Virus record (IMG/VR): IMGVR_UViG_3300044608_000137
Coordinates: 1 to 30,390 of that record
Reading direction: 5' to 3' (one strand)
Source: a virus
Length of the DNA stretch: 30,390 nucleotides
Shown here: positions 22,236 to 27,789 of the stretch, one piece after another
Layout of the letters: each line of letters starts with the position of its first letter
Position numbering within the stretch: the first letter of the stretch is position 1
Notes under the pieces: generated by a model
Told to the model about the DNA's origin: nothing
What the model saw: the letters and a program-made list of their open reading frames with translations, nothing else
Databases searched by the model: none
Program-made: the position numbers and the translations under genes

Positions 22236-22309
22236 AATATGTTTATAAGGTTATAGATTTAATTTGGGTGTATGTTATTAGCCGATTGTATAGAAACGAA
22301 GACAACTGA
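22232..22309 (+). CDS. Possible 25-aa peptide
   Basis: MKYVYKVIDLIWVYVISRLY followed by RNEDN. Its ATG overlaps the preceding TGA, and it overlaps the sigma factor start by 38 bases. It could be a short hydrophobic peptide or merely carry ribosomes to the sigma gene. Support is weak. Confidence 0.25.
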   Translation: MKYVYKVIDLIWVYVISRLYRNEDN

Positions 22310-22844
22310 AAATAGTTCGGAGTGGTTAGCATCGGTAGCAAAACACCACAAGCACTTTATATCGGTAGTTAAATCCTTTGGAGAAGACCGATACTCAGAA
22401 GACATAGTGCAAGAGATGTATTTAAGAATCTACAAATACACGAACCCAGAAAAGATAATAAAAGACGGACAAGTAAATCAAGGATTTATATGGTTTGTAC
22501 TGCGTAATATTTATGTAGACTACTGTAAGCAAAAATCTAAGATTGAAAAGGTAACTGTAAACGATGCTTTAGATATAAAAGATATTGATGTTAGCGGAAT
22601 GGAGAAAGCTAAAAATGATATAGAACTAAAGATTTATATGGAAATAGATTCGTGGCATTGGTACGATACGATGTTGTTTAAGTTATATAAAGAGAACAAT
22701 CACTCTATGCGTGAGTTATCTGCGTTAACTAAAATATCTGTAACGTCTATATTTCACACTATAAAGCATTGTAAGCAACGTTTGATTGAGAATGTAGGAG
22801 AAGACTACGAAGATTATTTGAATGGCGATTATGAAAGAATCTGA
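22272..22844 (+). CDS. Phage RNA polymerase sigma factor (ECF-like)
   Basis: This 190-residue protein has sigma region 2 at about 25-90 (RYSEDIVQEMYLRIYKY, then FIWFVLRNIYVDYCKQKSK) and a region 4 helix-turn-helix at about 133-172 (HSMRELSALTKISVTSIFHT). This two-domain plan is that of ECF-type sigma factors and of sigma-like late regulators in phages. It would redirect host RNA polymerase to late promoters, which fits the lack of the host-type TTTG/TAnnTTTG promoters before the late genes. The linker between the domains is short and acidic. The target promoter is not known; the palindromes at 7043 and 12473 are candidates. Confidence 0.8.
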   Translation: MLLADCIETKTTENSSEWLASVAKHHKHFISVVKSFGEDRYSEDIVQEMYLRIYKYTNPEKIIKDGQVNQGFIWFVLRNIYVDYCKQKSKIEKVTVNDALDIKDIDVSGMEKAKNDIELKIYMEIDSWHWYDTMLFKLYKENNHSMRELSALTKISVTSIFHTIKHCKQRLIENVGEDYEDYLNGDYERI

Positions 22845-23801: not shown

Positions 23802-24317
23802 ATGAAAGTAGATAAAGTAAAAATAAGCGAGGTAAAGACGAACCCAAAGAATCCACGTTTAATTAAAGACGATAAGTTTAAAAAGTTAGTAAAGTCTATA
23901 CAGGACTTTCCACAGATGCTTGAGTTAAGACCTATCGTAATAGATGAAAACAATATTGTTCTGGGTGGTAATATGCGTTTAAAAGCGTGTAAAGAAGCAG
24001 GGTTAAAAGAAGTGTATATTGTCAAGGCTGATAATCTAACCGAGCAGCAGAAAGACGAATTCATTGTAAAGGATAATGTAGGTTTTGGAGAATGGGATTG
24101 GGATATGTTAGCAAATGAATGGGACACCGAAAAATTAGAGGATTGGGGGTTGGATTTACCTATATTTAAAGATGATGAAACTGAATTAAAAGATTTATCA
24201 AGTACAATAGATAATTTATATCGTATTGAAATCGTATGTAAAGACGAAGAACATCAAGAAAATAGTTACAACAAATTAATTGAGGAGGGTTACGAATGCC
24301 GACTTTTGACATTGTAA
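23802..24317 (+). CDS. ParB-like N-terminal domain protein
   Basis: Residues 1-85 are a ParB/sulfiredoxin-type nuclease-like domain: VKISEVKTNPKNPRLIKDD, LRPIVIDENNIVLGGNMRLK (with the GGNxR signature at 55-59), then KACKEAGLKEVYIVK. Next comes FIVKDNVGFGEWDWDMLANE and KLEDWGLDLP, the linker known from phage ParB-methyltransferase fusions, where a DNA methylase domain normally follows. Here the methylase is absent. The chain ends with a short domain (about 130-171, LYRIEIVCKDEE ... YECRLLTL). The gene overlaps the next by 22 bases. A role in targeting or regulating a DNA-modifying enzyme is inferred; no ParB helix-turn-helix is present, so plasmid-type partition is unlikely. Confidence 0.78.
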   Translation: MKVDKVKISEVKTNPKNPRLIKDDKFKKLVKSIQDFPQMLELRPIVIDENNIVLGGNMRLKACKEAGLKEVYIVKADNLTEQQKDEFIVKDNVGFGEWDWDMLANEWDTEKLEDWGLDLPIFKDDETELKDLSSTIDNLYRIEIVCKDEEHQENSYNKLIEEGYECRLLTL

Positions 24318-25375
24318 AAGAAGTAAAGCCAACTAAAACTTTTAGAGTTGCTTCAGTGATTGGTAAATTTGATTTACAATCTGAAAACGTAATTGAACAT
24401 TTTAAAGGAGATATTGATATTCCTGATAATTGGCAAATAGGGTTAATTGTAGGAAAAAGCGGAACAGGAAAAACTACAATAGCAAAACAATTATTTGAAG
24501 ATGCTTATGTAACATCTTATGAATACACGAAAGAAACTGTATTAGACGATATGCCAAAAGAATGTAGCGTAGAACAAATTACATCTGCATTTAATTCAGT
24601 AGGCTTTTCTAGCCCACCGAGTTGGTTAAAACCATATTCAGTTTTAAGTAACGGACAAAAGATGAGAGTTGATTTAGCAAGAGCAATATTAGAAAAAAAC
24701 GAACTATTTGTATTTGATGAATTTACAAGCGTAGTAGATAGAAACGTGGCTCAAATAGGTTCTTTTGCTATGCAGAAAGCCATTAGAAAAACAAATAAAA
24801 AGTTTATAGCAGTTACTTGTCATTTTGACGTACAAGATTGGTTACTTCCCGATTGGGTATTTAACACCGATACAATGACCTTTCAAAGTTTTGAAGGGCA
24901 AAAAAAAAATAGACCAGAAATTAAATTTGAAATATTCAATTACGGAGATAAGTCAATTTGGAAAATGTTTGCTAAGCACCATTATTTAAGTCATTCACAT
25001 AATAACGCCGCTAATGTATTTATAGCAACAGTAAACGATGAGATAGCAGGATTTATAAGTGTTTTTCATTTTCCTCATCCCAAGAGTAAATTTTTTAAAC
25101 AAGTTCACCGATTAGTTATTTTACCTGACTATCAAGGAGCAGGAATAGGATTAAGATTGCTTAATGAAGTTGGAGCAATTTATAAACAAGAAAATTGGAG
25201 ATATACTATTATTACATCAGCACCAAGTTTAATTAATGCTTTAAAAAAATCATCAAATTGGATATGTAGAAGTTTTGGTAGAAAACCACCTCAAAATATA
25301 AACACAGGAAATCCAATTAGCACAAGAAAAACAGATAGCAGCACAAGAATTACCGCATCATTTGAATTAAAATAA
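24296..25375 (+). CDS. ABC ATPase fused to a GNAT acetyltransferase domain
   Basis: Residues 15-200 form an ABC-type ATPase: Walker A GKSGTGKT (53-60), signature LSNGQKMRVDLARA (117-130), Walker B LFVFDE (137-142), D-loop SVVD (145-148) and H-loop H176. No transmembrane part exists, so it is not a transporter. Residues about 210-335 form a GNAT domain: AKHHYLSHSHNNAANVFIA (226-244), VNDEIAGFISVFHFP, then VHRLVILPDYQGAGIGLRLL (270-289), whose QGAGIG loop is the acetyl-CoA-binding motif A. This plan resembles COG2401 (ABC ATPase fused to predicted acetyltransferase). The HYLS-type start recalls Mu Mom, a GNAT-fold enzyme that modifies adenine in DNA. An A10 run (24900-24909) lies at the domain border. 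It is coupled to the ParB-domain gene and precedes the terminase. A DNA modification role is inferred. Confidence 0.75.
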   Translation: MPTFDIVKEVKPTKTFRVASVIGKFDLQSENVIEHFKGDIDIPDNWQIGLIVGKSGTGKTTIAKQLFEDAYVTSYEYTKETVLDDMPKECSVEQITSAFNSVGFSSPPSWLKPYSVLSNGQKMRVDLARAILEKNELFVFDEFTSVVDRNVAQIGSFAMQKAIRKTNKKFIAVTCHFDVQDWLLPDWVFNTDTMTFQSFEGQKKNRPEIKFEIFNYGDKSIWKMFAKHHYLSHSHNNAANVFIATVNDEIAGFISVFHFPHPKSKFFKQVHRLVILPDYQGAGIGLRLLNEVGAIYKQENWRYTIITSAPSLINALKKSSNWICRSFGRKPPQNINTGNPISTRKTDSSTRITASFELK

Positions 25376-25396: not shown

Positions 25397-25732
25397 ATGG
25401 CAGGAAAAGGACAAATAGAACCACGATGGGAAAAAGGCGAAAGCGGAAATCCTGCAGGAAGACCAAAGGGAAGTAAGAACCGAAGCACAATAGCACGCCA
25501 ATGGTTAGAAGTTAATCAAAACTTAAAGAATCCTTTAACAGGCGAGAATGAAACAATGTCTCAGGAAGATTTAATGACGTTAGCATTGATTAAGAAAGCA
25601 CGTGAAGGAGATGTAGCAGCGTATAAGGCTTTGATGGATTCAGGATATGGCGCACCTGTTCAGCAGATAGAGCAGCATAATATTGAAATACCTTTATTCC
25701 CAGATGTTTCAGAGGACAACAGCAACGAATAA
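25397..25732 (+). CDS. Putative small terminase subunit (DUF5681-type)
   Basis: This 111-residue protein begins with WEKGESGNPAGRPKGSKNRS, the DUF5681 signature of basic Gly/Pro-rich N-termini found in proteins directly upstream of large terminases. A helical part follows (LMTLALIKKAREGDVAAYKA) and the C-terminus is acidic. The small terminase recognises the packaging site and regulates the large subunit. It overlaps the terminase gene by 29 bases. DUF5681 proteins are not always terminases, so context carries the assignment. Confidence 0.7.
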   Translation: MAGKGQIEPRWEKGESGNPAGRPKGSKNRSTIARQWLEVNQNLKNPLTGENETMSQEDLMTLALIKKAREGDVAAYKALMDSGYGAPVQQIEQHNIEIPLFPDVSEDNSNE

Positions 25733-26861
25733 AGTTTTATCTTTAAAAAGACGAACTAAAATAATTCAGGGCGGGACTTCTGCTTCGAAAACGTATTCTA
25801 TTTTAGCAGTATTAATAGACAAAGCATTAAAGAATACTACTGAGATTAGTATAGTAGCTGAAACAATACCACATTTAAGAAGAGGTGCATTAAAAGACTT
25901 CTTAAAGATAATGAGGTGGACTAATAGATATGTAGATGCAAACTTTAATAAATCACTTTTAAGATATGAATTTGCGAATGGCAGCGTTATGGAATTCTTT
26001 TCGGCTGATGATAGTTCTAAGTTACGGGGCGCTCGTAGGGATATATTATATATTAACGAGTGTAACAATGTCACTTTTGAAGCGTACAATGAGTTATCGA
26101 TTAGAACGAAGAGAGAGGTATTTTTAGACTTTAACCCTGCGAATGAGTTTTGGGTACACACGGAACTAAAAGACGAACCAGATAGCGACTTCATAATTCT
26201 AACCTACAAGGATAACGAAGCCTTAGACCAATCCATAATAGACCAAATAGAAAAGAACAAAGAGAAAGCAAAGACTTCTGAGTATTGGAGGAATTGGTGG
26301 AACGTTTACGGACTTGGTTTAGTAGGTAGCTTAGAAGGAGTTGTGTTTAATAATTGGAAGATAATCGATAATATTCCGATTGAAGCACGATTAATTGGCA
26401 TAGGATTAGACTTTGGTTATTCAGTTGACCCTACTGCGATAGTGGAAATATATCAATACAACGGACAAAGAATAGTAAGAGAAAAGGTATATCGCACCGG
26501 TATGCTTAACTCTGACATAGCTAAAGAACTACAAAAAAACGTAGTAGTGTATGCAGATAGTGCTGAGCCTAAAAGTATAGAAGAAATACGCAGACAAGGA
26601 ATAACGATTAAAGGTGTTACGAAAGGAAAGGATTCGATTAATTACGGAATAGATGTAATGCAACGTCAGGAGTATTTAGTAACGTCTGATAGTACTAATC
26701 TAATCAAAGAACTTAGAAGCTACTGTTGGGACACGGATAGAACAGGAGTAAGATTAAATAAACCTGCAGGTGGCAATGACCACATTATAGATGCGCTACG
26801 GTATCACGAAATGGAAACTTTAGGATTAAACAATAGCTATGGGACATACGCCATCCGTTGA
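25704..26861 (+). CDS. Terminase large subunit
   Basis: The ATG at 25704 gives 385 residues; a TTG seven codons upstream is possible but unneeded. The ATPase half has a Walker A-like GGTSASKT (23-30), ISIVAETIPHLRRGALKDF, and a Walker B with catalytic Glu in RRDILYINECN (E119). The nuclease half has LDFGYSVDPTA (D236), VVYADSAEP (D285) and GGNDHIIDALRY (D359, D363), the three-acid RNase H-like site. It pumps DNA into the prohead and cuts it. The length is on the short side for the family but all key motifs are present. Confidence 0.93.
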   Translation: MFQRTTATNKVLSLKRRTKIIQGGTSASKTYSILAVLIDKALKNTTEISIVAETIPHLRRGALKDFLKIMRWTNRYVDANFNKSLLRYEFANGSVMEFFSADDSSKLRGARRDILYINECNNVTFEAYNELSIRTKREVFLDFNPANEFWVHTELKDEPDSDFIILTYKDNEALDQSIIDQIEKNKEKAKTSEYWRNWWNVYGLGLVGSLEGVVFNNWKIIDNIPIEARLIGIGLDFGYSVDPTAIVEIYQYNGQRIVREKVYRTGMLNSDIAKELQKNVVVYADSAEPKSIEEIRRQGITIKGVTKGKDSINYGIDVMQRQEYLVTSDSTNLIKELRSYCWDTDRTGVRLNKPAGGNDHIIDALRYHEMETLGLNNSYGTYAIR

Positions 26862-27015
26862 GGAAATGATAGCAATAGTACAGGACTACATATACGATAG
26901 AAAGCGTGTAAGGGTAAGAATAGTATTTGACAATCCAATGAGAATGAGAAGAGATGTAATGCTCTTAAACGAAGCGTATAGTATTGCAGTTATGTATAAC
27001 AATAAGGATAAATAA
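26839..27015 (+). CDS. Hypothetical protein after the terminase, 58 aa
   Basis: This frame overlaps the terminase end by 23 bases. The protein (MGHTPSVEEMIAIVQDYIYD...) has a helix, then a basic strand-rich middle with RVRVRIVFDNPMRMRRD. It lies 13 bases before the chaperone-like gene. No family recognised. The tight fit supports that it is real. Confidence 0.6.
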   Translation: MGHTPSVEEMIAIVQDYIYDRKRVRVRIVFDNPMRMRRDVMLLNEAYSIAVMYNNKDK

Positions 27016-27028
27016 AAGTTATAAAAAT

Positions 27029-27715
27029 ATGAAGTTAGAATTGCTTATACCAACATCACTAAGTGAGATTCCATTAAAGCACTACCAAGAGTTTAGAAAG
27101 GTAGCTGAGAACTCAAATGATGAGGAGTTTATAGCTGAGAAAATGATAGAGTTATTTTGCGGCATAGAACTAAAGGATGTTATAAAAATTAAAGCATCTG
27201 ATATTTCTGATATGGTTAGCCACTTCAATAAATTGTTTTCTGTAAAGCAAAAGTTTGAACATCGTTTTAAGATAGGAGATTTAGAGTTTGGATTTGTACC
27301 TGACTTAGAGAATATATCTTGGGGTGAGTATATCGATATAGAACGCAACCTTACAGATTGGGACACGATGCATAAAGCTATGGCAGCAATGTATAGACCT
27401 ATCACCAAGCGTAAAGGAGAAAAATACGAAATAGAAGAGTACAACGGAACTGCTAACTATTCGGAAGTAATGAAGTACGCACCTTTAAATGTAGTGTTTG
27501 GTGCATCGGTTTTTTTTTGGACTTTAGGAAGCGAATTGTTGACGGCTTTGATGGACTATTTGGAGAAGGAGATGAAGGGGATGGACTTAACGACTATTCA
27601 GAGCAAACTCAATTTGGAAAACAATGGGGTTGGTATCAAAGCATATATGCACTCGCTAAAGGAGACGTTACAAGATTTGACGCAGTTACCAGAGAACCAT
27701 TGGTTAAGTGTTTGA
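27029..27715 (+). CDS. Probable tail assembly chaperone, zero-frame product
   Basis: I use the ATG at 27029 (MKLELLIPTSLSEIPLKHYQ); an in-frame ATG 45 bases upstream lies in the preceding gene. The 228-residue protein resembles helical proteins I associate with Bacteroidota phage tail assembly. It contains SWGEYIDIERNLTDWDTMHK and MAAMYRPITKRKGEKYEIEE. The T9 run at 27510-27518 encodes VFF and is followed by a zero-frame tail of about 65 residues (LGSELLTALMDYLEKE ... PENHWLSV). A second, open -1 frame overlaps this tail for 199 bases. Two products sharing an N-terminus, as in lambda gpG/gpGT, is the hallmark of tail assembly chaperones that coat the tape measure during assembly. The chaperone identity is inferred from this and from the neighbours. 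Confidence 0.65.
   Translation: MKLELLIPTSLSEIPLKHYQEFRKVAENSNDEEFIAEKMIELFCGIELKDVIKIKASDISDMVSHFNKLFSVKQKFEHRFKIGDLEFGFVPDLENISWGEYIDIERNLTDWDTMHKAMAAMYRPITKRKGEKYEIEEYNGTANYSEVMKYAPLNVVFGASVFFWTLGSELLTALMDYLEKEMKGMDLTTIQSKLNLENNGVGIKAYMHSLKETLQDLTQLPENHWLSV
27510..27518 (+). promoter_or_regulatory. T9 slippery site for -1 frameshifting
   Basis: Nine T in a row span 27510-27518. In the zero frame they read G-TT TTT TTT TGG. A slip of one base back at T-TTT-TTT leads into TTG GAC TTT and a 90-codon open frame to 27789. Polymerase slippage adding one U would give the same frame. Confidence 0.65.
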
Positions 27716-27789
27716 CCTTACTAACATTTGAGAAGCAAAAGACGGAAATAGAAATTAGACAAATTAAAAAGCAACAACAAAAATGGTAG
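27517..27789 (+). CDS. -1 frame extension of the tail assembly chaperone
   Basis: This frame has no ATG anywhere; it can only start at TTG 27517 or be entered by frameshift from the upstream gene. The product of about 90 residues contains FGKQWGWYQSIYALAKGDVT and VKCLTLLTFEKQKTEIEIRQ, which reads as a well-formed domain of the kind found at the end of frameshifted tail chaperones. Fused to the first 163 residues of the 27029 gene it gives a protein of about 253 residues. The frame is closed upstream by TAA at 27454. The stop overlaps the next start region (ATG at 27783). Confidence 0.65.
   Translation: MDFRKRIVDGFDGLFGEGDEGDGLNDYSEQTQFGKQWGWYQSIYALAKGDVTRFDAVTREPLVKCLTLLTFEKQKTEIEIRQIKKQQQKW

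Follow-up and report, generated by a model that had tools for sequence, protein, structure and literature searches.

In phage Mu, Com activates translation of mom (PMC6483171). In other phages, a ParB N-terminal domain is fused in cis to a DNA methylase (phrog_498). A further system pairs GNAT and ABC ATPase domains; Iyer et al. (2013) predicted that it acylates a DNA base, as restated in the jumbo-phage survey PMC7824862, which names Tenacibaculum phage pT24. We analysed a member of this last family, a gene pair at positions 23802-25375 of a 30,390-base IMG/VR virus record (the whole stretch is referred to here as the window), which encodes a ParB-domain protein and an ABC ATPase-GNAT fusion (ABC-GNAT). 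The pair is probably a cassette by which the phage modifies DNA bases to shield its genome from restriction (probability roughly 0.7); the acyl chemistry and the ABC/GNAT stoichiometry are less certain. DNA-base acylation by this family is already a published prediction, and no experiment on an ABC-GNAT enzyme was found in the literature searched. The window copy shares family, domain pair and predicted function with the system of Iyer et al., and adds a ParB-borne adapter, a genomic slot common to known DNA modifiers and a putative slippage site, none of which is mentioned in the passage of PMC7824862 on that system. New here are the exchange of enzymes in the slot, the linkage to com, the adapter as constant partner, and the recoding signals (an A10 run or a -1 frame).

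The ParB-domain protein (171 aa, 23802-24317; all features are on the plus strand) belongs to the ParB/Srx superfamily, scoring above the curated Pfam cut-off for ParB_N (28.8 vs 26.3 bits). The fusion (359 aa, 24296-25375) matched ABC_tran (3.5e-10) and Acetyltransf_1 (9.7e-9). The two genes overlap by 22 bases (24296-24317; synonymous variation, observed/expected 0.0), and the overlap was exactly 22 bases in 81 of 81 close relatives. The next genes encode a DUF5681 protein and the large terminase (25397-26861), and these bound the modification slot. The initial annotation had described both the overlapping pair and its position before the terminase genes correctly. In IMG/VR, 335 matches to the enzyme were of the window type and 359 of the Mu type; its carriers comprise hundreds of phage contigs, from phages of many bacterial groups. 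Comparisons were made with 81 close window-type loci, 80 terminase relatives, 80 Mom loci and 80 Mu-like loci, many of which are metagenomic and mutually related.

In 80 relatives of the window terminase, the gene content preceding the terminase was read. A slot enzyme was present in 32 of them; the remainder lacked the ParB/DUF5681 arrangement. The enzymes were N6_N4_Mtase methylases (18), ABC-GNAT (8, one truncated), TAGT-type glycosyltransferases (4), Mom (1; PF25680, 5.4e-48) and a Tet_JBP oxygenase (1). The methylases, normally fused to ParB, were identified by Pfam in 15 of 18 cases and by matching open reading frame (ORF) length plus ParB N-domain in 3; contig ends hide ParB in 3 of the 18 loci. 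One of the four TAGT-type loci was recognised through phrog_842 only, and the Tet_JBP locus has a short upstream flank. Terminases were near-identical among phages with differing slot enzymes, and no slot among the terminase relatives held two of these enzymes together. Mutual exclusion of methylase and ABC-GNAT behind ParB, proposed as a test in the initial annotation, thus holds among these relatives. The methylase fusions resemble the window locus in their ParB N-domain and in the slot before DUF5681 and terminase, but their enzyme is fused in cis and they have no adapter, ABC or GNAT. In a separate scan with the Mom protein, this ParB lay directly upstream in 76 of 80 Mom loci, and ABC-GNAT occurred in none of the 80. 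In most of these loci (L268-L347) the ParB/Mom overlap is also exactly 22 bases, as for ParB/ABC-GNAT; the overlap sequences differ.

Because the slot is occupied in close relatives by known DNA base modifiers, DNA modification by the window pair is very probable, and ABC-GNAT presumably does the same job as these enzymes. Phages commonly have cargo hot spots, and the slot could be a general cargo site whose contents are uninformative on function. We regard this as very improbable, since all 32 identified occupants were DNA base modifiers or ABC-GNAT and shared the ParB N-domain wherever the flank was long enough to show it.

A second kind of locus gave a similar picture. Relatives of the ABC-GNAT of Pseudomonas phage Komp_PAO1_1 follow tail-fibre genes, where Mu carries com-mom. 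The Com zinc finger (PF10122) was found upstream of ABC-GNAT with E-values down to 2.2e-18 in the tested cases and was detected by motif in 68 of the 80 Mu-like loci, a label that itself rests on the Com gene and gene order. A search of 18 ABC-GNAT phage records, run alongside a positive control, found no Mom. The Mu-like relatives of the window enzyme thus hold the com-linked position of Mom, and ABC-GNAT replaces Mom at loci of two unrelated kinds, although it is not Mom by sequence. A Formyl_trans_N gene (PurN-like, phrog_9240) directly follows ABC-GNAT in 39 of the 50 Mu-like loci with enough flank (e.g., L091, 6107-6724). This hints at extra chemistry and would suit a cassette acting on the nucleotide pool, tRNA or a pre-modified base, with the GNAT as a second-step tailoring enzyme. 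We consider such a role distinctly unlikely; the window-type cassette has no such partner beside it and is flanked by ParB, DUF5681 and terminase genes only.

The fusion as a whole (residues 11-356) matched phrog_11143, a family of unknown function (6.8e-99), and Tenacibaculum phage pT24 protein QAX98348.1 is a clear relative (1e-45). Its AlphaFold2 model (mean predicted local distance difference test score, 82.9) shows two domains with a junction at about residues 199-210. The ABC ATPase domain (residues 1-199; 24296-24892) gave a VIA match to ABC ATPases, and its predicted structure resembles transporter-type ATPases (Z about 15). The GNAT acyltransferase domain (residues 210-359; 24923-25372) carries HHYL (24977-24988) and the coenzyme A (CoA) motif QGAGIG (25133-25150). 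Walker A, signature, Walker B, H-loop and QGAGIG were all conserved in 60 homologues, with K59, S118, G120, D141, E142 and H176 of the ABC domain invariant, so the motifs are intact, as the initial annotation had stated. It had also noted that there is no membrane part. The fused domain is a GNAT, no permease is adjacent or fused, and the flanks consist of ParB and packaging genes; the protein is therefore not an ABC transporter by its membrane-permease definition.

The same annotation had taken the GNAT for a Mom-like enzyme, and this did not hold. The GNAT domain alone gave no match to PF25680 at E-values up to 1, hhalign against the Mom alignment returned a probability of 3.2%, and the match to the Mom-like family phrog_1384 was weak (0.16). 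The QxxGxG CoA motif, invariant in ABC-GNAT as QGAGIG, is missing from the Mom alignment, so the window enzyme does not have the Mom-type active-site region, which is without the canonical CoA motif. The nearest solved folds were RimI and Naa50; known Mom proteins were not among the fold matches shown, an absence that carries no evidential weight. Mom and ABC-GNAT share a GNAT-type fold and an HHY motif in the corresponding region, occupy the same position downstream of com in Mu-like phages, and are interchangeable behind ParB; unlike ABC-GNAT, Mom has no ABC domain. By sequence, the GNAT of the window enzyme is not Mom. The annotation's broader proposal, that the pair modifies phage DNA against restriction, is supported by the slot and the genomic context, without the likeness to Mom; its linkage to ParB is supported as well.

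The ParB N-domain (about residues 1-120; 23802-24161) is common to phages of the ParB-methylase, ParB plus Mom and ParB plus TAGT types, with up to 95% nucleotide and 97% amino acid identity to the window. ParB sequences of the different types part directly after WGLDLP. The linker KDNVGFGEWDWDMLANEW does lead into a methylase in other phages, as previously noted; the window ParB, which had been thought to end there, extends about 65 residues beyond it, closing with a conserved adapter segment (~34-35 residues, about 138-171; 24213-24314). This adapter is homologous to the phrog_28816 proteins of Mu-like phages, short proteins of unknown function (mostly 42-70 residues) that always lie directly before ABC-GNAT.

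A hidden Markov model (HMM) of the adapter matched 81/81 window-type, 80/80 Mu-like, 6/6 streptococcal/lactococcal-type and 7/7 bona fide bacterial-contig loci (174/174 in total) and none of the 80 Mom loci; the positive counts include seed sequences, and the negative sets are independent. The bacterial-contig scan was weak, based on generic P-loop patterns, and 7 of its 38 matches were real. Among named-phage loci, 13 of 19 matched. Among terminase relatives L187-L264, the HMM picked out exactly the five with a full ABC-GNAT. Because of this match pattern, the adapter appears to be the constant partner of ABC-GNAT, with ParB as one carrier. ParB was absent from all 80 Mu-like ABC-GNAT loci, which retained the adapter alone, so it is evidently not essential to the mechanism; of the earlier view that ParB takes part in it, the linkage to ParB stands. 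Planctomycetota contigs L348-L353 carry the adapter and ABC-GNAT; ParB is present in some of them and seemingly absent from L353.

Other arrangements of ParB were also seen. A distant, adapter-less variant of the cassette occurs in Salmonella phage SSU5 (L100, 1593-4737); it comprises two genes for ParB together with an ABC ATPase, a small protein and a 296-aa ABC-annotated protein. The ParB gene of Lactococcus phage LW4 (L267, 2977-4157) precedes one for a 214-aa protein (phrog_21813, function unknown) that is a candidate additional ParB partner. Streptococcus phage Javan23 (L265, 3492-4571) encodes a ParB-DUF4417 fusion whose record wrongly calls it a 'DNA modification methylase', and Javan523 has a ParB-only gene (L084, 4504-5022) that is mislabelled in the same way.

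The linker between the two domains of the fusion contains an A10 run (24900-24909), which was present in 81 of 81 close loci; these loci, 666 kb in all, contained just one further A10 run. Across 47 clusters (<95% identity), observed/expected synonymous variation at this site was 0.01-0.04; it was near the gene average elsewhere and suppressed only at A10 and at the ParB overlap. A one-base insertion or -1 shift at A10 leads to QKKK-stop in 80 of 80 relatives, the stop being TAG (24910-24912 in the window) or TAA (as in L075-L077). The locus thus has a conserved homopolymer of at least nine bases with a stop in the shifted frame, as in dnaX-like slippage, and a one-base slip would yield an ABC-only product. 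These signals suggest that the A10 site produces both a short (ABC-only) and a long (ABC-GNAT) form. Three more distantly related loci (L429, L430 and L432) retain A9 or A10, with the GNAT in frame -1, +1 and -1 relative to ABC, respectively, and are full-length when the frame is read across. In Oenococcus, Lactococcus and Streptococcus phages, the first strand and helix of the GNAT are encoded in the -1 frame and have no start codon. In the streptococcal/lactococcal type, this -1 frame sits behind a T5-T7 run and, mostly, a stem-loop (z -2.2 to -4.8; not significant in L104 and L105), with compensatory changes at 4 of 8 consensus pairs. The window's own A10 had no 3' stem-loop (z +1.2), and transcriptional slippage is therefore favoured there.

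Homopolymers of at least nine A or T cause efficient slippage of bacterial RNA polymerase, and every one of these recoding arrangements occurs in dnaX (PMC5009743). Like tau and gamma of dnaX, the ABC-GNAT protein is an ATPase with a C-terminal extension and a putative truncated form arising by slippage at an A-run with a stop immediately after, and in both families both zero-frame arrangements and both mechanisms occur. ABC-GNAT is, however, a different protein from DnaX, and its two products are predicted from sequence signals. The A10 run could instead be a mere lysine-rich linker translated in one frame, with its bases conserved for some other DNA or RNA element. The in-frame fusion is indeed the zero-frame product in the window, and several lineages have no run; however, synonymous suppression is confined to A10 and the gene overlap, the homopolymer is retained while its phase drifts, and the streptococcal/lactococcal phages have an independent -1 frame architecture. 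We therefore consider a simple linker unlikely. Two other candidates were discarded. A separate GNAT expressed from an internal promoter or start at A10 was dropped when the candidate TAnnTTTG proved not to be conserved. The streptococcal split genes were rejected as simple two-gene operons, since no start codon precedes the first GNAT strand and helix, which are encoded in the -1 frame.

These results suggest the following mechanism. The ParB N-domain, which is shared by phages that attach methylases, Mom or TAGT/TET enzymes to it, may serve as a common swappable platform. The adapter at the ParB C-terminus, associated with ABC-GNAT as described above, would recruit the enzyme. The ABC ATPase dimer would position or gate the GNAT on DNA, and the GNAT would transfer an acyl group from acyl-CoA to the exocyclic amino group of a base. 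Slippage at A10, for which the signal is present, would supply ABC-only and ABC-GNAT subunits in the manner of dnaX gamma and tau, giving an ABC assembly with fewer GNATs than ABC subunits. More tentatively, the cassette may represent an unseen class of DNA hypermodification, in which bases are N-acylated in a CoA-dependent reaction by an ATP-driven ABC-GNAT machine with a slippage-set subunit mix and a 35-residue plug-in adapter, exchanged with methylases, Mom and TET/TAGT at a socket marked by ParB or com.

Several points weigh against the interpretation as a DNA-modifying cassette with an adapter and recoding. The functional evidence is genomic context throughout. The adapter is missing in TR-TP2, P12024S, VmeM-32, PX29 and pT24 and is hence not universal; it is also missing in SSU5, whose ABC is more distant. 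Recoding signals are not universal either: the gammaproteobacterial, actinobacterial, leptospiral and Mu-like relatives examined have an in-frame fusion without runs of at least nine, and poly-A length in single metagenome contigs may be off by one. The GNAT domain is a canonical GNAT, with RimI and Naa50 as its nearest solved folds (Z about 14, AlphaFold2 model). This resemblance would fit an enzyme that acetylates a protein (host RNA polymerase, the ribosome or a defence protein), in the manner of phiKMV Rac or RimI, and lies next to ParB for other reasons; protein-acting phage GNATs do exist (PMC7824862). The best equivalog match of the fusion was also rimI, although at 22.1 bits it fell far under the cut-off of 86.4 and the protein is not assigned to the RimI family. 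Exchange in the slot with four kinds of DNA base modifier and the com-linked position in Mu-like phages both argue against protein acetylation, which we judge quite unlikely, and DNA base modification remains our preferred interpretation.

PADLOC revealed no convincing defence system. Elsewhere in the window, a sigma-factor-like ORF (22272-22844; phrog_1740, 1.1e-5) lies upstream of the cassette and is a recurring neighbour in many related loci. A T9 run (27510-27518) inside ORF 26984-27715, near the start of the overlapping ORF 27517-27789, is a possible further slippage site.

The slot exchange and the com linkage make the 2013 prediction sharp and testable, and culturable phages that carry the cassette can be named: P335 (Lactococcus lactis), SL25 (Pseudoalteromonas), LE3/LE4 (of the saprophyte Leptospira biflexa) and Komp_PAO1_1 (Pseudomonas). 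The slippage site accounts for the split annotation of the enzyme in streptococcal/lactococcal phages as 'ABC siderophore transporter' plus 'hypothetical protein' and, if true, would represent dnaX-like recoding in a DNA-modifying enzyme. More generally, phage DNA modification may follow a plug-in design, as the adapter and the ParB socket suggest.
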